Shown piece by piece: positions 55,360 to 62,348 of a stretch of DNA of 64,000 bases. The first letter of the stretch is position 1. Every line of letters starts with the position of its first letter. The translations under genes and the position numbers were made by a program. Origin of the DNA: a virus; the IMG/VR virus record IMGVR_UViG_3300037225_001188, positions 1 to 64,000 of that record; one strand, given 5' to 3'. Below the pieces are notes generated by a model. The model was not told the origin of the DNA and did no database searches. It saw nothing but the letters and a program-made list of their open reading frames with translations.

Positions 55360-56505
55360 CTATGCCACGCTTCCCGGCGCCATGTGCAGCCGCGAGAGGG
55401 ACTGGAGGGCGAGCTGCGAGAGCGCTCGGTGCCAGGTCTGCACTTTCTGCAGCGCCGCCTTGGCGCGGGCCGTCTTCTTCTCCGGGACGCCGGCGATCTT
55501 CGTCTCGAGGCGCGAGTGGATGTCGCCGAGCTGCCGGAGCAGCGGCTCGAGCGCCTGGGTGAGCTGCGGGTTGTCGATGGTCGGGCGCTGGTCGTAGAGG
55601 TCCTTCGCCGCGTCCTCCAGCTCGACAGCCTCCAGGTTGAGCGGGTTGGCGACCTTCGCCACGACGCGCTCGACGACGCGGATCTGCGCGGGCTCGGTCC
55701 ACAGGGAGTGGACGAGGACCTCGCAGTGGTCGGCGCTGGTCTCCGTTTCGCCGTCGAGGAAAGCCTTGGCGCGGAGGAGCTTGCCGCACGCCTTCCAGCG
55801 GCGGTCGCTGGCGCTGACGCCTTCCTCTTCGAGCCCGTGCTTGATGTTGATGAGCCCATCCACCGTGTCGTCGGTGAGCGGCGTCATCGCCACGAGGCGC
55901 TGCGCCTCGGCCAGCTCGACGAGGGAGACGGTGGCGTTGACCGAGGTGGCGTTGCAGCGGAGCAGCATCTTGAGGCTGTCGTCATCGGCGAGCGGCTGGA
56001 CCACGAGGCGCACGAGGAAGCGGTCGTACATGGCGCCGAGGCTGGCGTCCTCGGGCAGCTCGTTCGAGGCTCCGACCATGGAGAGCAGCTTCGCGGGCAC
56101 CGCCGCCCCCGCCTCGTGGTAGACGCGCTCGTTCATCAGGCTGAGCATGGAGTTCAGGATGGCCGAATTCGCCTTCATGCATTCGTCGACGAAAACGAGA
56201 TGCGCGTCGACGATGCTGCCCTTGATGATGCGCTTGTACTCGTCGTGCTCCAGGGCGCTGAGGCTGAGCGGCCCGAAGAGTTCCTCGGGGGTAGAGAAGC
56301 GGGTGAGCAGCCGCTCGAAGTAGGTGGCGCCCGTGATGCGCTCGCACACGGAGCGCACGAGCATCGACTTCGCGGTCCCGGGAGGGCCGAGGAGCAGCAG
56401 GTGCTCCCGGGTGAGGAGCGCGAGGAGCGCGGCCTCGACGGCGGTCTCACGCTCGAGCAGGTTCGCGTTGAGGTCCTGGGCGAGAGCGATGATCTTCTGG
56501 TGCAT
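55360..56505 (-). CDS. MoxR AAA+ ATPase, RavA-like
   Basis: 381 aa. Walker A LLGPPGTAKSML; LLTRFSTPEELFGPLSLSAL; Walker B HLVFVDECMKANSAILN; MNERVYHE; sensor VGASNELPED and MYDRFLVRL. These follow E. coli RavA closely through the AAA+ core. The C-terminal about 130 residues differ from the RavA LARA domain. MoxR ATPases act with VWA-domain proteins, one of which is encoded 0.6 kb downstream in the same operon. A hairpin module and a tRNA-like minihelix precede the gene. Confidence 0.88.
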   Translation of the reverse strand: MHQKIIALAQDLNANLLERETAVEAALLALLTREHLLLLGPPGTAKSMLVRSVCERITGATYFERLLTRFSTPEELFGPLSLSALEHDEYKRIIKGSIVDAHLVFVDECMKANSAILNSMLSLMNERVYHEAGAAVPAKLLSMVGASNELPEDASLGAMYDRFLVRLVVQPLADDDSLKMLLRCNATSVNATVSLVELAEAQRLVAMTPLTDDTVDGLINIKHGLEEEGVSASDRRWKACGKLLRAKAFLDGETETSADHCEVLVHSLWTEPAQIRVVERVVAKVANPLNLEAVELEDAAKDLYDQRPTIDNPQLTQALEPLLRQLGDIHSRLETKIAGVPEKKTARAKAALQKVQTWHRALSQLALQSLSRLHMAPGSVA

Positions 56506-56520
56506 GGTGACTGCCTTTCT

Positions 56521-56539
56521 CCAGGTTGGCAGAACCTGG
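56521..56539 (-). promoter_or_regulatory. Hairpin adjoining a ribosome-binding site (module 5)
   Basis: CCAGGTT/AACCTGG stem with loop CTGCC, followed by AGAAAGGCAGTCACC and the ATG of the MoxR gene at 56505. Confidence 0.65.
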
Positions 56540-56554
56540 GTTGCGGTGCTGCGT

Positions 56555-56590
56555 TGGCCGGACCACGACGAGTCGAACGTCGAGGCCCGG
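56555..56590 (-). ncRNA. tRNA-like acceptor/T-arm minihelix 1
   Basis: Minus strand: CCGGGCC, T, T-arm CGACG-TTCGACT-CGTCG, T, GGTCCGG, then CCA. A 7-bp acceptor stacks directly on a 5-bp T stem with a standard 7-nt T loop; D and anticodon arms are absent. It lies between the 55-residue membrane-protein gene and the MoxR gene. Confidence 0.7.
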
Positions 56591-56622
56591 GGTACTATCG
56601 AGCCAGGGCTCCGAGCCCTGCT

Positions 56623-56790
56623 CTATCCTGGCAGCTTCCCCATTCCGCTCAGGCCGAAGATGAGTCCAAGCGCAAAGGCCATCAGCACGAAGGCGATGCC
56701 GGCCAGGATGGTTCCATTCATCACGGCCGTCTGGACCACGCGCCGTAGCTCGCCCGCCGTCAATTGCGTAGCTGGTTTGAGATTGTCCAT
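56623..56790 (-). CDS. 55-residue membrane protein of the MoxR-VWA locus
   Basis: ATG at 56790 overlaps the region of the upstream stop (56792). Residues about 25-50 are a membrane helix with Gly pairs (ILAGIAFVLMAFALGLIFGL). The preceding soluble part is LKPATQLTAGELRRVVQTAV. It could anchor the MoxR complex. Confidence 0.65.
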   Translation of the reverse strand: MDNLKPATQLTAGELRRVVQTAVMNGTILAGIAFVLMAFALGLIFGLSGMGKLPG

Positions 56791-56791
56791 C

Positions 56792-58009
56792 TCAGTTCCC
56801 CTTGGTGAAGACGCCGAGCTGCGCCAGCGCGACCGCGTTCGAGTACACGTTGCCGCCGCTCATCGTCAGGCGCAGCGACACCTCGTGGCCCACGGGACCG
56901 CTGTTCTGCACGACGACCTTGACCTTGCCGCTCACCATCGGCTTGCCGCTGAGGCCCATCGCGCTCATCCGCAGCACGGCCTCGCGTGCCGCCGCCTCGC
57001 TGCTCGTGAACAGCATGGTGCCGTCAGTCTCGACGAGCTGCTGCTGGAAGCAGGCCCCGCCGAAGGACAGGCGCAGGCCCTCGGGCGACGCGGCCGCCGC
57101 CTTGACCTCGGGCGCCGTCTCCGCCACCGGCGTCGAGCCGTTGCCGCCGCGGTGGAGGACGACGCTCTTGCGGATGTCCAGCATGGCGTTCACCTTGATA
57201 TCCAGGTCGGCAAGGACCTTGACTGCCTGTTCCACGCCGATGCCGAGCGCCGCCTTGTACAGACCAGCACGCTCGCGCAGGGCCTGGTACTCCTCGAGCC
57301 GCTTGGTGTATGTCGACGGCTTCTGCGTCCCGTCGAACGCCGCCGCCTCCTCCTCCAGCTTCTGGAGCTGCTCGGCCAGGCTCTCGCTGGCCACGGCCTG
57401 GACGACGACCTGGGCCTCGGCCTCCACCTCGCAGAGGACGAGGTCGATGCCGACCTCGGAGATGAACGCGCCGAAGCGTCGGATGGCGTCGAGGCGCTGC
57501 GGCGGCGCCCAGTAGATGCGGCCGTCGCCGCGCACCCGGGAGGCGTCGTGCGCCTCGAAGTAGGCGGAGATGGACTTGGTCCAATCGTCGGCGACCACCT
57601 TCCCGCGCAGGTCCTGGTACTTCACCGCCACCCGCTTGGCGACGTCGTGCTCGCCTTGGACGACGCTCGGGTCCGGCTCGGCCTGCCACCGCAGGGCGGC
57701 GAGGAACTCCGGGTTCTGCCCCTGCGCCAGCTTCACCTTGTCAGCCTCGACGATACCCCATGTCACCTCGTCCCCCTTCTGGACGATCGGAAGCAGCACC
57801 AGGTTCTCCTTCTGCTGGAGGCCCGCCTTCACGCTGTCGATGGCCCGGCTGACGGCGGTGCGGTCGCCAGCGTAGCTGGGGATGTACTTCTCGTCGATGC
57901 CGTGCTTGACGGCGAGGGCCGCGACCTCCTCGGTGGAGACGGCGTTGATGCCGCGGGCGCGGGTGAACACGAACGCGCCCTGAGAGAACTTGCTGGTCGT
58001 GGTTGCCAT
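56792..58009 (-). CDS. Partner protein of the MoxR-VWA locus (DUF6744-like), 405 aa
   Basis: An N-terminal domain (AFVFTRARGINAVSTEEVAA, YIPSYAGDRTAVSRAIDSVK) is followed by DDWTKSISAYFEAHDASRVR and GRIYWAPPQRLDAIRRF, a coiled coil (residues about 220-290) and a beta-rich C-terminus. I recall similar proteins (DUF6744) next to MoxR and CobT-like genes in actinobacterial phages; this is memory, not a search. It is the first gene of the locus. Confidence 0.55.
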   Translation of the reverse strand: MATTTSKFSQGAFVFTRARGINAVSTEEVAALAVKHGIDEKYIPSYAGDRTAVSRAIDSVKAGLQQKENLVLLPIVQKGDEVTWGIVEADKVKLAQGQNPEFLAALRWQAEPDPSVVQGEHDVAKRVAVKYQDLRGKVVADDWTKSISAYFEAHDASRVRGDGRIYWAPPQRLDAIRRFGAFISEVGIDLVLCEVEAEAQVVVQAVASESLAEQLQKLEEEAAAFDGTQKPSTYTKRLEEYQALRERAGLYKAALGIGVEQAVKVLADLDIKVNAMLDIRKSVVLHRGGNGSTPVAETAPEVKAAAASPEGLRLSFGGACFQQQLVETDGTMLFTSSEAAAREAVLRMSAMGLSGKPMVSGKVKVVVQNSGPVGHEVSLRLTMSGGNVYSNAVALAQLGVFTKGN

Positions 58010-58026
58010 GTTGCTTGGTCCCTTCT

Positions 58027-58045
58027 CCCGGCGAGGAGCGCCGGG
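58027..58045 (-). promoter_or_regulatory. Hairpin adjoining a ribosome-binding site (module 6)
   Basis: CCCGGCG/CGCCGGG stem with loop CTCCT, then AGAAGGGACCAAGCAAC and the ATG at 58009. Confidence 0.65.
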
Positions 58046-58093
58046 GTGTGAGGTGGGTGGGCCTACTTACTCGCGGCAAGAGGGCCGCCGCCT

Positions 58094-58192
58094 TTAGGCG
58101 GTGGATGAATTGCCGCAGGGAATGTAGCTGGACTCCGGGTCCGTGGTGCGCTTCTTGCCCTTGAAGAAGTACCTGACGATCTTGTAGGTCAT
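58094..58192 (-). CDS. 32-residue protein
   Basis: ATG at 58192 encodes MTYKIVRYFFKGKKRTTDPE and a short tail. The 5' part resembles small phage proteins with a KIVR-x-(Y/F)-x-x-G-x-x-R-x-x start, but it is much shorter; the end runs into an inverted repeat (CCGCC-TTTA-GGCGG). Possibly truncated. Confidence 0.45.
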   Translation of the reverse strand: MTYKIVRYFFKGKKRTTDPESSYIPCGNSSTA

Positions 58193-58195
58193 CAG

Positions 58196-58786
58196 CTACG
58201 CCTCCATCAGCAGTTGCGATAGGCACGCGAGGGCGGAATCCATGAATGCAGCCCTCGCCACAGCCCACGCCGCAGCCCCCGCCGCAGCCCCCGCCGCAGC
58301 CGACGCCGCAGCCCCCGCCGCATCCCACGCCGCAGCCCCCGCCGCAGCCCCCGCCGCAGCCCCCGCCGCAGCCCCCGCCGCATCCCACGCCGCATCCCAC
58401 GCCGCAGCCGACGCCGCATCCGACGCCGCATCCCACGCCGCAGCCCCCGCCGACGCCGCATCCCACGCCGCATCCGCCATCTCCTCTTGGCTCACGCTCT
58501 CCGGGTCCTCGACGCACCGCCGCACGACCGCGAGGCACTGCGCCACGCGCGGATCGGTGCTTAGGTGCGCAACCTGCTCCGCGCACCAGAGCGCGTACGC
58601 CCGCTGGGACCCCGGCCCTTCGTCGGACAGGACGTGCCAGAGCCACCACGAGTCTAGCCCCTCAGCGGCGAGGTCGAACAGCGTCTCCACCGTCGGCTCG
58701 CAGCCGGCGGGATAGAGGTTCTTGAAGGCGTCGCGCTGCCCCTCGCAGGCGCCGTGCTTCACGAGCAGGTCGTAGGTGATCTTCAT
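58196..58786 (-). CDS. Alanine/WDAA-repeat protein, 196 aa
   Basis: Residues 1-100 form a folded-looking domain (KITYDLLVKHGACEGQRDAF). Residues about 105-178 are AAWDAA and GAAA tetrapeptide-type repeats encoded by imperfect 12-bp units, then a short hydrophobic end. Such WDAA-repeat proteins occur in phages and bacteria; function unknown. Confidence 0.7.
   Translation of the reverse strand: MKITYDLLVKHGACEGQRDAFKNLYPAGCEPTVETLFDLAAEGLDSWWLWHVLSDEGPGSQRAYALWCAEQVAHLSTDPRVAQCLAVVRRCVEDPESVSQEEMADAAWDAASAGAAAWDAASDAASAAAWDAAWDAAGAAAGAAAGAAAGAAAWDAAGAAASAAAGAAAGAAAWAVARAAFMDSALACLSQLLMEA
58252..58470. repeat. Imperfect 12-bp tandem repeats inside the WDAA gene
   Basis: Units GCCGCAGCCCCC and GCCGCATCCCAC alternate many times over about 220 bp. 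The period is a multiple of 3, so the protein repeat is preserved. Replication slippage is likely to change its length. Confidence 0.85.
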
Positions 58787-58798
58787 GGCCGGTCTCCT

Positions 58799-59173
58799 TT
58801 ACGCCTGGTTCAAGCTGCGGAGGTAGCGGAGGTAGTGGACGCTCTCGACGATGGCGTCCTGCATGAGGCTCGCCTCGTACCGCGCGCTGCACGCCGCGGC
58901 GATGAACTGCGCCTGCGACCGGTGGTTCTTCTTCGCCTTGGCCGCCTGTTCCAGGGCCGCCATCTCCTGCCGGTGGGCCGCGACCTTCGCCATGATCGCC
59001 ACGTCCCGCTCGTACTTCGCTGCCCGCACGGCCCGGCGGCGGGCGAGGTAGGCGGAGTCGAGGTCGCGGAGCCACGCCATGATGGTGGTTACGGCCATGA
59101 CCGCGGGGTTGCTCTGGAGGATGCGGTTGCCGATGGAGACGGTCATGTTCTGCTTCATGTTCTGCATTTGCAT
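58799..59173 (-). CDS. Helical hypothetical protein, 124 aa
   Basis: MQMQNMKQNMTVSIGNRILQ offers several start Mets. The rest is basic and helical (RRRAVRAAKYERDVAIMAKV). A hairpin module precedes it. Not recognised. Confidence 0.6.
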   Translation of the reverse strand: MQMQNMKQNMTVSIGNRILQSNPAVMAVTTIMAWLRDLDSAYLARRRAVRAAKYERDVAIMAKVAAHRQEMAALEQAAKAKKNHRSQAQFIAAACSARYEASLMQDAIVESVHYLRYLRSLNQA

Positions 59174-59182
59174 GGTCCTTCT

Positions 59183-59200
59183 CCAGGCTCGACGGCCTGG
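59183..59200 (-). promoter_or_regulatory. Hairpin adjoining a ribosome-binding site (module 7)
   Basis: CCAGGC/GCCTGG stem with a 6-nt loop, then AGAAGGACC and the ATG at 59173. Confidence 0.65.
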
Positions 59201-59209
59201 TGTTGTTGC

Positions 59210-59238
59210 TTGACAACTGCTGCGTGTAGCGGTAGGTT
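59210..59238 (+). promoter_or_regulatory. Plus-strand promoter
   Basis: TTGACA 59210-59215, 17-bp spacer, TAGGTT 59233-59238. Drives the plus-strand gene at 59281. Confidence 0.6.
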
Positions 59239-59280
59239 AGCGCTGTTCACTTGGCCAAACAAGAATACAGGAGCTACGAG

Positions 59281-59493
59281 ATGGCGACGAAGAAGACCGA
59301 AGGCAAGATGCGGCGCGGCATGCAGTTCGTGCTCGGCGAGGACGGGCAGCCGGTGCGGTGCCCGAAGTGCAAGCAGAAGATCCGCGAGGTGAGCCCGAAG
59401 AAGCTGCTCACCAAGGAGGAGGTCATCAAGCGAGAGGCCAGGATCGCCAAGATGCAGGCGAACCTGGAGGAGATCAAGCTCATCAACAAGTAG
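59281..59493 (+). CDS. Small zinc-binding-type protein, 70 aa
   Basis: ATG at 59281 has CAGGAGCTACGAG upstream and is preferred over TTG at 59251. CPKCKQKI provides one CxxC; the C-terminal half is a basic helix (EEVIKREARIAKMQANLEEI). An isolated plus-strand gene with its own promoter and terminator in the minus-strand block, suggesting expression at another time. Confidence 0.7.
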   Translation: MATKKTEGKMRRGMQFVLGEDGQPVRCPKCKQKIREVSPKKLLTKEEVIKREARIAKMQANLEEIKLINK

Positions 59494-59512
59494 CACCACC
59501 GCTCCACGATGA

Positions 59513-59530
59513 GGGCGAGCCGTCTCGCCC
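59513..59530. terminator. Terminator-like hairpin
   Basis: GGGCGAG/CTCGCCC stem, 4-nt loop, just after the plus-strand gene and before the convergent gene end at 59555. No strong U-run. Confidence 0.5.
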
Positions 59531-59554
59531 CCACCATGCAACGCTAGGTACTGC

Positions 59555-59833
59555 CTACCCCTCCACCATTAGCACGGTGTTCTCTCCCGGCACCCACATG
59601 GTCATCAGCACCTTGGTGATGCCGAAGTCCCGCAGGTTGGCGAGCTGGTTCTCCAGGCTGTGGCGCCTGGTGGACAGCTCGACCTCCCGCTCGAAGGCGT
59701 CGAGGAACTCGGGCTGGCTGACCGAGTAGAGCCACTTCCTGGCAGTGGCCTCGGCCAACTGGAGGATCGTCTCGTGGAGCTTCTCCTGTATGATGGCCTT
59801 GGCCTGGGCATAGGTGACACCGATCGGAGACAT
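59555..59833 (-). CDS. Hypothetical protein, 92 aa (nested start)
   Basis: ATG at 59833 follows a hairpin and AGAAAGGCCACCACC, the arrangement seen before other genes. Product MSPIGVTYAQAKAIIQEKLH is helical with EFLDAFEREVELSTRRHSLE. Probably the real gene in this frame. Confidence 0.65.
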   Translation of the reverse strand: MSPIGVTYAQAKAIIQEKLHETILQLAEATARKWLYSVSQPEFLDAFEREVELSTRRHSLENQLANLRDFGITKVLMTMWVPGENTVLMVEG

Positions 59834-60070
59834 GGTGGTGGCCTTTCTCCGGCGTGGAGCGCCGGCTTTGCGGAGCTGCTGGCTGGTCTGGCTGCGGACG
59901 TCGAGGTAGAAGCGGAGCCCCTTCATGCTGAGGCCGTCGCAGTTCTCTGGGACCTCGGCGATGCAGGCGACGGCCCGCTCCTCGACCCAGAGGTCCTGCT
60001 GCACGGAGAGGCAGAGCACGAGGACGATGGCGGGGAGCAGGGCGGACGCGAGCATGACGGTCTCGAGCAT
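59555..60070 (-). CDS. Apparent fusion of two small genes, 171 aa
   Basis: From ATG 60070 the product has a membrane helix (LETVMLASALLPAIVLVLCL) then a soluble part. The frame continues without stop through a hairpin/ribosome-binding-site module (translated as KAGAPRRRKATT) into a second protein whose own ATG is at 59833. Elsewhere a stop codon precedes each module, so the first gene seems to have lost its stop. Confidence 0.5.
   Translation of the reverse strand: MLETVMLASALLPAIVLVLCLSVQQDLWVEERAVACIAEVPENCDGLSMKGLRFYLDVRSQTSQQLRKAGAPRRRKATTMSPIGVTYAQAKAIIQEKLHETILQLAEATARKWLYSVSQPEFLDAFEREVELSTRRHSLENQLANLRDFGITKVLMTMWVPGENTVLMVEG
59849..59865 (-). promoter_or_regulatory. Hairpin adjoining a ribosome-binding site (module 8)
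   Basis: CCGGCG/CGCCGG stem with loop CTCCA, then AGAAAGGCCACCACC and the ATG at 59833. Confidence 0.65.
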
Positions 60071-60084
60071 GGGTGAGCCCTTCT

Positions 60085-60101
60085 CCGGCGTCAGGCGCCG
60101 G
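60085..60101 (-). promoter_or_regulatory. Hairpin adjoining a ribosome-binding site (module 9)
   Basis: CCGGCG/CGCCGG stem with loop CCTGA, then AGAAGGGCTCACCC and the ATG at 60070. Confidence 0.65.
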
Positions 60102-60117
60102 GCTTGACGTATGGCGT

Positions 60118-60166
60118 TGGCCCGCGGCGGCCGGAGTCGAACCGGCCTGACCTCACCGTCCGCGGG
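60118..60166 (-). ncRNA. tRNA-like acceptor/T-arm minihelix 2
   Basis: Minus strand: CCCGCGG, a 12-nt linker (ACGGTGAGGTCA), T-arm GCCGG-TTCGACT-CCGGC (6 bp with the flanking pair), CCGCGGG, then CCA at 60118-60120. No anticodon arm. Confidence 0.7.
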
Positions 60167-60173
60167 ATGCTAC

Positions 60174-60446
60174 CTACTCGGTCTCGAGCCCGGCGAGCGC
60201 GAAGATCTCCTCCTTCTCGTCGTCATCTAGCCCCTCCCCGTACTGCTCGATCAGCACGGCCGGGTCCCCGATCTCCCAGCGGTGGCCGTTGCTCCACTGC
60301 GAGGGCGTCTCGCAGTACCACGTCCCCTTGCTGGACAGGTACAGGTCCCCGGTGTGGAGGTTGTGCCCGTCGTGGTAGTTCAGGCTCCACGACTTCTTCG
60401 CCTTCTCCGTGTCGAACCTGTGGCCCTCGATCAGAACGATGCTTAT
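60174..60446 (-). CDS. Hypothetical protein with an apparent ATA start, 90 aa
   Basis: The frame ISIVLIEGHRFDTEKAKKSW, then GTWYCETPSQWSNGHRW and a helical acidic end, is clearly coding, but no ATG, GTG or TTG precedes it in frame. At the expected position stands ATA (60444-60446), with AGAAAG-N8-ACC before it exactly as for neighbouring ATG-started genes. Upstream lies a short CCCC/GGGG hairpin. Confidence 0.6.
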   Translation of the reverse strand: MSIVLIEGHRFDTEKAKKSWSLNYHDGHNLHTGDLYLSSKGTWYCETPSQWSNGHRWEIGDPAVLIEQYGEGLDDDEKEEIFALAGLETE

Positions 60447-60463
60447 GGTGCTCTCGCTTTCTG

Positions 60464-60483
60464 GGGGGTTGCCCCTGCCGGGG
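60464..60483 (-). promoter_or_regulatory. Hairpin near the ATA-start gene (module 10, weaker)
   Basis: CCCC/GGGG stem with a 4-nt loop (60472-60483), followed on the minus strand by GCAACCCCCCAGAAAG. Shorter and further from the start than the other modules. Confidence 0.4.
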
Positions 60484-60494
60484 TTGCCGGCTCT

Positions 60495-60545
60495 AGCCCT
60501 GCCGCCCGGGAGTCGAACCCGGAGCGGTCTCCGATTGCGGCAGGG
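60495..60545 (-). ncRNA. tRNA-like acceptor/T-arm minihelix 3
   Basis: Minus strand: CCCTGCCG, a 15-nt linker (CAATCGGAGACCGCT), T-arm CCGGG-TTCGACT-CCCGG, G, CGGCAGGG, then CTA where the others have CCA. Confidence 0.65.
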
Positions 60546-60553
60546 GTTCTGCG

Positions 60554-61003
60554 CTACGCCGGCTCCTTCGGCGCGGCGAAGCTCTCCGCCGCGGCGGTGG
60601 CGGCCTTGGCGTTCGCGGCGTCGGGCTTCGAGCCGCAGACCACGAGGTTGACGCCGACCTGGTAACCGGTCGCCTTGGTCGTCGAGCCCGGCTTGCTGCC
60701 CATCTTGACGAGGTTGCCGGAGACCTGCAGCGTGACGGGCACGCCGGCGATGGTGGTCTCGACCTTGCCGCCGATGCGGCTCCCGGTCGAGCCGGTCGAG
60801 AACGCCTTGGCCTCGGGCTTGAACTCGACGCCGAGGACCGCGACCTTCTCTGCGGTCGGGCTCTTGCCAGAGGCGTACCAGCCCAGGCTTCCCGTCGAGA
60901 AGCGACGGGGCAAGGCGACGATGCTGGTGTCGTCGATGGCGAGGGCGAGCGGGGCGGCGGCGGCGAGGAACTCGGACTCGGTCATGTTGAACTTGGTGGT
61001 CAT
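60554..61003 (-). CDS. Hypothetical protein, 149 aa
   Basis: A conserved-looking beta-rich protein (LPRRFSTGSLGWYASGKSPT, VPVTLQVSGNLVKMGSKPGS) with an Ala-rich tail. The pattern LPxRxFSTGSxGWYxxGK is one I recall from phage single-domain proteins of unknown function. Preceded by module 11 and minihelix 4. Confidence 0.65.
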   Translation of the reverse strand: MTTKFNMTESEFLAAAAPLALAIDDTSIVALPRRFSTGSLGWYASGKSPTAEKVAVLGVEFKPEAKAFSTGSTGSRIGGKVETTIAGVPVTLQVSGNLVKMGSKPGSTTKATGYQVGVNLVVCGSKPDAANAKAATAAAESFAAPKEPA

Positions 61004-61017
61004 GTCGTGCTCCTTCT

Positions 61018-61036
61018 CCCGGTTGGAAGAACTGGG
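61018..61036 (-). promoter_or_regulatory. Hairpin adjoining a ribosome-binding site (module 11)
   Basis: CCCAGTT/AACCGGG stem (one G-U pair), loop CTTCC, then AGAAGGAGCACGAC and the ATG at 61003. Confidence 0.65.
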
Positions 61037-61082
61037 TTGGTCTTGGTCGCTACGCCCGCGGCGAAGCACTCGTCGCAGGCAG

Positions 61083-61124
61083 CGGCCGCCCGTGCCGGAG
61101 TTGAACCGGCGAGCCGTCGGGCGG
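61083..61124 (-). ncRNA. tRNA-like acceptor/T-arm minihelix 4
   Basis: Minus strand: CCGCCCG, a 7-nt linker (ACGGCTC), T-arm GCCGG-TTCAACT-CCGGC, A, CGGGCGG, then CCG instead of CCA. Confidence 0.65.
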
Positions 61125-61148
61125 GTGCTACGTTCTCCAGGAACCGTG

Positions 61149-61988
61149 CTACTTGATGAGCGGGTTGCCGTTGCTCCGCAGCCCGCTATCGCTGAGGTAG
61201 CCGTCGTTGCTCAGCTTCACCACCTCCGACGCACGCTCTCGCACCACCTCCGGCGTGAGGCCGGCGAGCATGGAGAGAAACGCAGCCGGCACCGACCCGC
61301 ACTGCGTCACGTTCTTCGGGTCGATGAGGCGGATGTACATGTGCCCCAGCTCGAGGTGCAGCTCCATCACCACCAGCCGCCCGGCCACGTCCTCGGACCC
61401 GGTGACCCGCCCCATGACGAGGCCGGTTGCGTGACCCTCGGTCCCGCCGACGAACGTGACCTTGTAGCCGATCATGGAGCCGACCGCCGCCTCGTGGCTG
61501 CTCAGGCTGCCGGTGCTGATGCCCGGCAGGTACACCTCGCGGCTGTCGAAGTCGAGGTCGCGGCAGTACTGGACGCCGCGCAGCAGGTGCTTCTTGACGG
61601 ACGCCTGCGGCTGCCGGCTCTTGAGCAGGGCCTTGCCCCACTCGTGCAGCGTCAGGCCCTCTGACCCGGCGGAGTTGTGCCCGCCCTCGCCCTTCCAGTA
61701 CGCCTCCTCGATCTCCGGCGGCAGCTTGGTGAGGCAGCCGCGGTTCCAGGAGCGCACCTCGTAGAGGCTCAGCGGCAGGCCGTCGCCGCCGTAGGTCCCG
61801 CTGAGGGAGACCTCCTGGTCGCCGAGGTGCAGCGTGCCGCCCATGAATTGGCCGCACTGGCGCATGGAGACGTGGCGCACGATGCCGTAGAGGCCCTCCT
61901 TCTTGCTACCGAAGAGGACGAGGAACTGTCCGGCGGCAAGCTGCTCGCCGTCCTTGCTGTAGCCCCTGCGCGAGTTGGTGATGAACAT
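61149..61988 (-). CDS. Hypothetical protein, 279 aa
   Basis: Soluble alpha/beta protein; central segments GMVRQ-type VRHVSMRQCGQFMGGTLHLG and SMIGYKVTFVGGTEGHATGL. No motif recognised. Preceded by module 12 and minihelix 5. Confidence 0.65.
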   Translation of the reverse strand: MFITNSRRGYSKDGEQLAAGQFLVLFGSKKEGLYGIVRHVSMRQCGQFMGGTLHLGDQEVSLSGTYGGDGLPLSLYEVRSWNRGCLTKLPPEIEEAYWKGEGGHNSAGSEGLTLHEWGKALLKSRQPQASVKKHLLRGVQYCRDLDFDSREVYLPGISTGSLSSHEAAVGSMIGYKVTFVGGTEGHATGLVMGRVTGSEDVAGRLVVMELHLELGHMYIRLIDPKNVTQCGSVPAAFLSMLAGLTPEVVRERASEVVKLSNDGYLSDSGLRSNGNPLIK

Positions 61989-62003
61989 CTGCGTGCTCCT
62001 TCT

Positions 62004-62020
62004 CCCGGCTCGTGGCCGGG
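62004..62020 (-). promoter_or_regulatory. Hairpin adjoining a ribosome-binding site (module 12)
   Basis: CCCGGC/GCCGGG stem with loop CACGA, then AGAAGGAGCACGCAG and the ATG at 61988. Confidence 0.65.
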
Positions 62021-62027
62021 TGAACGT

Positions 62028-62075
62028 TGGTCGGGCCGGCGCGAGTCGGACGCGCCTCGGTCTCCGATGGCCCGC
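62028..62075 (-). ncRNA. tRNA-like acceptor/T-arm minihelix 5
   Basis: Minus strand: GCGGGCC, a 13-nt linker (ATCGGAGACCGAG), T-arm GCGCG-TCCGACT-CGCGC, C, GGCCCGA, then CCA. The linker shares ATCGGAGACCG with minihelix 3 and could form a 3-bp stub. The first acceptor pair is mismatched. Confidence 0.65.
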
Positions 62076-62082
62076 ACAGCAA

Positions 62083-62115
62083 GGAGCCCCGGCAACATCA
62101 CGCTGCCGGGGCTCC
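62083..62115. terminator. Strong GC hairpin
   Basis: GGAGCCCCGGCA (62083-62094) pairs perfectly with TGCCGGGGCTCC (62104-62115), 9-nt loop. On the minus strand it is followed by TTGCTGTG rather than a U-run, just upstream of minihelix 5. The rest of 62116-62348 has a weaker inverted repeat (GGTGAGG ... CCTCACC near 62140-62180) and no gene I can support. Confidence 0.55.
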
Positions 62116-62348
62116 GGTACTTCGTCCACGGTTCCATGTCGGTGAGGCCAGGGTCCGCAGCGGACCTACCATCCTCACCCTGCAGCATCTATCGGCGCTC
62201 GCCTCTAGGCGGGGGTGCCAGCCCGTGCGCGCCTCAGCGTCTCAACTCCTGCCGTCTCGTGGTGGCCGGTCGCTTGGAGCAACTCATGGTGTCGGGCTCG
62301 TGCCCATCCAACAGAGGCCCCAGCGTACCATGCCGGTGGAGTGATGGT

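Follow-up and report, generated by a model that had tools for sequence, protein, structure and literature searches.

Anticodon-less tRNA minihelices between the genes of a phage cluster as candidate RNase P recognition sites

We suggest that nine short elements lying between genes of the virus record IMGVR_UViG_3300037225_001188 are transcribed tRNA-like recognition sites for ribonuclease P (RNase P) that punctuate the minus-strand messenger RNA (mRNA) of a phage, a reading that we place marginally on the favorable side of an even chance. Each element consists of an acceptor stem and a T-arm with a tRNA-type T-loop, with linkers of 1-16 nucleotides (nt) in place of the D and anticodon arms, and will be called a minihelix. 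The stretch analyzed, referred to as the window, comprises bases 1-64000 of the record, the full length of which is 130,793 base pairs (bp). An initial annotation of the window had described five such sites, intergenic and on the minus strand, and all five are genuine and present where it placed them. As an inventory it was incomplete, in that the same record holds four more copies shortly beyond the window. The nine minihelices, all intergenic and on the minus strand, fall within 11 kb, and no others were found elsewhere in the 130,793-bp record.

A compact array of nine minihelices

The copies are listed here with their scores under a covariance model built from all nine.

62076-62028, minus strand: minihelix 62050; acceptor CGGGCC/GGCCCG; T-arm GCGCG-TCCGACT-CGCGC; tail A-CCA; 48.8 bits
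61125-61083, minus strand: minihelix 61105; acceptor CCGCCCG/CGGGCGG; 7-nt linker; T-arm GCCGG-TTCAACT-CCGGC; tail CCG; 39 bits
60545-60495, minus strand: minihelix 60517; 9-bp acceptor CCCTGCCGC/GCGGCAGGG; T-arm CCGGG-TTCGACT-CCCGG; tail CTA; 44 bits
60167-60118, minus strand: minihelix 60141; acceptor CCCGCGG/CCGCGGG; 13-nt linker; T-arm GCCGG-TTCGACT-CCGGC (6 bp possible); tail CCA; 48.3 bits
56591-56555, minus strand: minihelix 56577; acceptor CCGGGCC/GGTCCGG; 1-nt linker; T-arm CGACG-TTCGACT-CGTCG; tail CCA; 33 bits
Record 67537-67488, minus strand: minihelix with T-loop 67510, outside the window
Record 66789-66746, minus strand: minihelix with T-loop 66768, outside the window
Record 66203-66154, minus strand: minihelix with T-loop 66177, outside the window
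Record 64068-64019, minus strand: minihelix with T-loop 64042, outside the window

The array is real and lies far above chance. When the covariance model was run on the genome, a check that the initial annotation had proposed, the nine copies stood out at 33-49 bits; the next match (26 bits) is on the opposite strand inside an open reading frame (ORF), and the rest score 17 bits or less. A strict descriptor, requiring a 5-bp T-stem, the T-loop, 7/7 acceptor pairs and a linker of up to 20 nt, finds six sites in the genome, as against 0.075 expected per genome in first-order Markov sequence, and no site in the reversed genome. Regardless of acceptor, the whole genome holds ten canonical T-arms, nine of which are the minihelix sites. 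When these T-arms were kept in place and only the flanking sequence was shuffled, 2% of trials produced a perfect 7-bp acceptor, compared with six of the nine observed (p ~4e-9); the remaining three copies have 6/7 acceptor pairs. Over 2.63 Mb of other loci the strict descriptor gave four matches, namely three real tRNA-Thr genes and one isolated site. On the Markov test, the flank shuffle and this last comparison we reject a chance origin.

The nine copies carry the letters of a canonical tRNA T-arm (G53, T54, T55, C56, R57, A58, C61): G53, T54, C56, A58 and C61 are constant throughout, and T55 is replaced in a single copy (TCCGACT). The 7-nt loop of TTCGACT type that had been annotated was recovered in the window as TTCGACT at three sites, TTCAACT at one and TCCGACT at one. 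The D arm and anticodon arm of a canonical tRNA gene are lacking. Stacked together, acceptor and T-stem amount to 11-14 bp, usually with one unpaired nt at the junction. The annotated fold stands. Its dimensions had been given as acceptors of 7-8 bp, T-stems of 5 bp and linkers of 1, 12, 15, 7 and 13 nt; the window sites have acceptors of 6-9 pairs, T-stems of 5-6 and linkers of 1, 7, approximately 12-13, 13 and 14-16 nt. The linkers of 62050 (TCGG-AGA-CCGA) and 60517 (CGG-AGA-CCG) can form a tiny third hairpin where the arms are missing.

From T-loop to 3' tail the distance is 13-14 nt, the same as in tRNA, and the tail at the helix edge reads CCA in five copies, CCG in two and CTA in two. 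Within the window the CCA ends are those of 56577, 60141 and 62050, in agreement with the count of three that had been annotated, and the other two sites end in CCG (61105) and CTA (60517). Compared with the 3' R73-C74-C75 of an RNase P acceptor/T model substrate, the helix edge shows RCC in 7/9 copies and RCT in the other two, and hence RC-pyrimidine in all nine.

Differing stems with preserved pairing had also been noted, and compensatory differences do run through the nine copies (further examples of acceptors are CCTGCCG/CGGCAGG and CGGGCAG/CTGCTCG). Standard pairs occupy 97% of cells, and in 10 of the 12 pairs both partners vary. The covariation score reaches 0.861, compared with 0.182 for shuffles and no more than 0.222 for slid partners. 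These figures overstate the case, because the structure guided the alignment and pairing played a part in the choice of sites; the fair tests are the Markov descriptor and the flank shuffle. To fit the alignment, linkers were extended with padding or cut back and individual bases were dropped at bulges and junctions, since MAFFT misaligned the 5' arms. RNAalifold, given the same alignment and no pairs, recovers the same 12 pairs. Among the paired cells, G-U occurs four times and A-C never, a pattern suggesting that selection has acted on the minus-strand RNA.

The intergenic module and its transcripts

All nine minihelices lie on the sense strand between a stop codon and the next start, in a region that is approximately 20% intergenic, and they do so within a regular module. 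In order, this comprises a TAG stop, a spacer of GYAGCA type, the minihelix, a spacer of CAGCACC type such as CCAACGCAGCACC, a ribosome-binding-site (RBS) hairpin of 6-7 bp with a mostly 5-nt loop, GAGAAGG or a variant, and ATG. Every gene upstream of a minihelix ends in TAG, as against 53 of the 136 predicted ORFs in the genome. The T-loop is found 33-52 nt downstream of the upstream stop at 7/9 sites and 69-75 nt before the next start codon at 6/9 (the putative start at 60517 being ATA). That hairpin and RBS modules follow four of the five window sites had been correctly annotated; at the fifth, 60517, weaker hairpins are present. A separate hairpin precedes the minihelix on its 5' side at four sites, of a CGG-loop type right after the stop at three and of 12 bp at 62050. 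The hairpins concerned are as follows.

62004..62020, minus strand: RBS hairpin CCCGGC-CACGA-GCCGGG, then AGAAGGAG and ATG at 61988
61018..61036, minus strand: RBS hairpin CCCAGTT-CTTCC-AACCGGG with one A-C mismatch, then AGAAGGAG and ATG at 61003; a scan lists this inverted repeat on the plus strand
60477..60491, minus strand: weaker hairpin GCCGG-CAACC-CCGGC after minihelix 60517, replacing the usual RBS hairpin
60085..60101, minus strand: RBS hairpin CCGGCG-CCTGA-CGCCGG, then AGAAGGG and ATG at 60070
56521..56539, minus strand: RBS hairpin CCAGGTT-CTGCC-AACCTGG, then AGAAAGG and ATG at 56505
62083..62115, minus strand: strong 12-bp hairpin GGAGCCCCGGCA ... TGCCGGGGCTCC, 5' of minihelix 62050
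56604..56620, minus strand: hairpin CAGGGCT-CGG-AGCCCTG just past the TAG stop, 5' of minihelix 56577

RBS-hairpin modules with differing stems number about a dozen, occur on the minus strand only between approximately 48 and 67.5 kb, and stand in some cases at genes with no minihelix. After minihelix 60517 an open frame of approximately 90 codons (window 60446-60174, minus strand) has no in-frame ATG, GTG or TTG; its only plausible start is the ATA that follows GAGAGCACC, possibly a rare start codon or a mutated ATG.

Several familiar roles for intergenic elements can be set aside. A scan of the minihelix gene cluster found no sigma-70-like promoters, and we reject the minihelices as promoters on the absence of promoter-like sites there. 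None is followed by a T-run, and a terminator scan lists none at the nine sites; as GC stems with no U-run behind them, they are rejected as intrinsic terminators. Searched against Rfam, the window has no match that reaches the gathering threshold, and the stretch 56400-62300 has none to tRNA even with E values of up to 10 allowed; a known Rfam family is likewise rejected. ARAGORN calls no tRNA in the window and a single low-scoring one in the whole record, overlapping a minihelix; the record contains no credible tRNA gene.

Two further features of the cluster were noted. A strong terminator-like hairpin with a T-rich tail (record 65127-65094, minus strand) lies inside it, adjoining an ORF on the opposite strand. 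Upstream of its first gene there is a repeat-rich stretch of CCATGTACCTAG type (record approximately 68000-68300, minus strand), which is possibly a promoter region.

RNase P cutting and its alternatives

The initial annotation had described acceptor/T minihelices as minimal substrates of RNase P, and model substrates bear this out: in vitro, RNase P cuts hairpins that combine an acceptor stem with a T-stem and T-loop, and does so at the canonical site (PMC11143913). We consider RNase P cutting the best explanation because the nine copies match these hairpins. Their 12-bp length is thought to serve as a ruler, and a 3' RCCA pairs with RNase P RNA (PMC11143913; PMC12710915). The minihelices, with their T-loop and stacked stems of about 12 bp, their spacing of 13-14 nt and, in seven of nine, their RCC tail, match this ruler and these contacts. 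Natural substrates of the enzyme include phage RNAs and polycistronic mRNAs (PMC11143913). The absence of promoter-like sites is also consistent with processing rather than with new transcription starts.

On this proposal, RNase P would grip the T-loop, measure approximately 12 bp of stacked acceptor and T-stems, and pair with the R-C-C/T 3' end. The cut would fall 5' of the first acceptor base pair, shortly past the upstream stop codon, in a region that we infer to be polycistronic. The upstream message would end there, with a hairpin near its new end at four of the nine sites; a cut at the 5' edge of minihelix 62050, for instance, would leave the hairpin at 62083..62115 near the 3' end of the upstream product. 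At the start of the downstream message a stable helix would enclose the 5'-monophosphate, and the RBS hairpin and the gene would come next. Such a helix-closed end would be expected to slow decay that depends on the 5' end, making the mRNA segments independently stable, and the divergence of the stems, set against the conservation of loops and flanks, may prevent recombination or cross-pairing among the nine repeats. The broader proposition, that the phage evolved a multi-copy, anticodon-less family as dedicated RNase P cut sites and processes this gene cluster by tRNA punctuation without tRNAs, through a standard arrangement in which stop, cut site, RBS hairpin and start follow one another, we hold to be as probable as its negation.

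Several observations weigh against the proposal. In most copies the stem is offset by one position from that of a textbook tRNA, with one unpaired nt 3' of the T-stem and position 73 paired with -1; the first acceptor pair is usually C-G instead of G-C, and two copies end in CTA. The weakest copy, 67510, has 6/7 acceptor pairs and a T-stem probability of 0.35 in its full leader, and in the full leaders of 66768, 60141 and 60517 alternative structures compete with the minihelix (T-stem probability 0.47-0.66). Moreover, the terminator-like hairpin inside the cluster suggests more than one transcript, maybe two.

The nearest rival would assign the minihelix to the 3' end of the upstream gene, whose message would be cut or trimmed after the CCA by RNase Z, exonucleases and the CCA enzyme and would end in a protective tRNA-like helix. 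We think this improbable. It has a model in the plant mitochondrial t-elements, which set mRNA ends via RNase P and RNase Z (PMC11658184). It also fits the placement of the T-loop, soon after the upstream stop at 7/9 sites and approximately 70 nt before the next start, and the CCA or CCG encoded in seven copies. Yet RNase Z is usually blocked by an encoded CCA, an unpaired discriminator base is absent from most copies, two copies end in CTA, and at four sites a hairpin of its own, located 5' of the minihelix, could already provide 3' protection. With CCA or CCG encoded in seven of nine copies and no free discriminator in most, the case for RNase Z and the CCA enzyme is weaker than that for RNase P. 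To the same low degree we would credit the minihelix with being a mere structural spacer that insulates or stabilizes the mRNA, or shapes the leader beside the RBS hairpin, with no tRNA enzyme involved. The stems are indeed stable and regularly placed, and structured leaders in the form of RBS hairpins are used throughout the cluster. A spacer, however, leaves unexplained both the strict T-loop, with its five invariant letters in nine copies, and the 13-14 nt that separate it from a C-pyrimidine tail, and plain hairpins, which are also present, should then suffice.

The other candidates seem weaker still. The copies could be tRNA genes truncated by deletion and drifting, or functionless tRNA-derived repeats; the linker of 67510 (TAGCACAGCGG) resembles the 5' half of a D-arm, and BLAST of the 66768 leader leads to tRNA-Pro genes of Caulobacter phages, albeit at chance level (E ~1). 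We find decay hard to credit, as it would not retain 97% pairing in nine differing copies that are always intergenic, on one strand and in one module, and the genome holds no credible complete tRNA. Enzymes that act on the T-arm accept minihelices, and an equally slim chance attaches to the elements binding TruB, TrmA, EF-Tu, a synthetase, a phage protein or some other tRNA-handling protein, as a translation regulator or decoy; nine copies embedded in leaders suit a role in cis better than a decoy, and among the proteins scanned, in a scan that was incomplete, no candidate phage RNA-binding protein or tRNA enzyme was recognized. Least probable of all, and very remote in our view, is a function at the level of DNA. 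Inverted repeats in intergenic DNA would suit operators, and the 3' ends of tRNA genes commonly serve as attachment sites. Variable arms around a constant loop are the opposite of an operator, which we reject on this ground, and the occurrence of G-U but no A-C pairs and the lack of promoter-like sites tell against DNA-level elements as well.

If the RNase P proposal is true, the virus employs host RNase P for mRNA processing at purpose-made, repeated sites, making natural use of a minimal model substrate. The array would offer nine natural variants for probing the requirements of the enzyme, and it would supply a rule for locating sites that escape tRNA finders and Rfam.

The virus, its relatives and known systems

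By its PHROG matches the record is a myophage, with tail sheath, portal, large terminase, DnaE-type polymerase, helicases and the following gene pair.

56505-53373, minus strand: MoxR-type ATPase with VWA protein

Single-protein identity to the closest sequenced phages is only approximately 25-40%. A host from the phylum Myxococcota is a reasonable, if unproven, guess from these comparisons, because the proteins closest to the ATPase are chromosomal proteins of Myxococcota (65% identity over the conserved core) and distant relatives of the portal are present in 30 of 195 Myxococcota genomes. The ORF at window 58786-58196 (minus strand) carries a long Ala-rich tandem codon repeat of WDAA/GAAA units.

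No minihelix array was found in the other records searched, which comprised approximately 50 phage or viral records together with bacterial loci. A portal query of IMG/VR returned close relatives at 78% and 76% identity, from metagenomes 3300031952 and 3300037225, present only as contigs of approximately 7 kb that do not cover the minihelix region. No relatives came out of single-protein IMG/VR scans in which the ATPase, the terminase or a leader-associated ORF served as the query; searches for DNA patterns of the module matched only unrelated sequences, and an ATPase profile and a conserved-motif query reached relatives at 35-58% identity with no minihelix arrays. Among GTDB contigs the portal query had no match, and the ATPase query found only cellular or distant MoxR genes. 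Neither the stretches around distant portals in Myxococcota genomes nor ten further phage genomes searched with the covariance model contain an array; in the latter, the inspected matches were real tRNAs or transfer-messenger RNA (tmRNA) except for two weak ones (18 bits). Taken over the distant ATPase-bearing viral records, the ten phages and the Myxococcota stretches, complete tRNAs or tmRNA made up most of the matches inspected, and a few others were weak and isolated. A search of open-access papers for phage minihelices, truncated phage tRNAs and phage tRNA punctuation found no report of such an array.

To our knowledge, acceptor/T minihelices are familiar as laboratory substrates and as the hypothetical ancestral half of tRNA. 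As tRNA-like mRNA processing signals the phage elements would belong to a known kind, and what is new is their minimal form, their multiplicity and their phage setting. Closest in form are the synthetic RNase P model substrates of pAT1/pATSer type (McClain, Guerrier-Takada and Altman, 1987, as presented in PMC11143913), which likewise consist of acceptor stem, T-stem and T-loop alone, have no D or anticodon domains and end in 3' RCCA. As described there, these are designed laboratory RNAs, whereas the phage copies are natural, multi-copy and embedded in mRNA, with an acceptor usually shifted by one, position 73 paired, and some tails of CCG or CTA. The t-elements of plant mitochondria (Forner, 2007, as treated in PMC11658184) are also tRNA-like elements at mRNA ends, set via RNase P and RNase Z; in that account they have whole-tRNA homology, a typical tRNA-like secondary structure and no encoded CCA, in contrast to the acceptor and T-arm alone, often with encoded CCA, of the phage. 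The minihelices share with t-elements and punctuating tRNAs the sense-strand intergenic position, and differ in having no recognizable whole-tRNA homology. In metazoan mitochondria, tRNA-like structures between genes mark the cut sites of long transcripts (PMC4394434), as we propose for the phage, but there they are real decoding tRNAs, while the minihelices have no anticodon and would release no tRNA. Phage transcripts cut by host RNase P, as we suggest these to be, include the C4 antisense RNA of P1/P7, M3 RNA and T4 gene 32 mRNA (PMC11143913), which are single sites and no repeated family of T-loop minihelices in leaders, a distinction drawn from their listing in that source. Finally, the armless mitochondrial tRNAs of Romanomermis and others (PMC4394434) are likewise strongly shortened, to less than 50 nt, but it is their D and T arms that are lost and their acceptor and anticodon arms that are kept, a pattern opposite to that of the phage minihelices.

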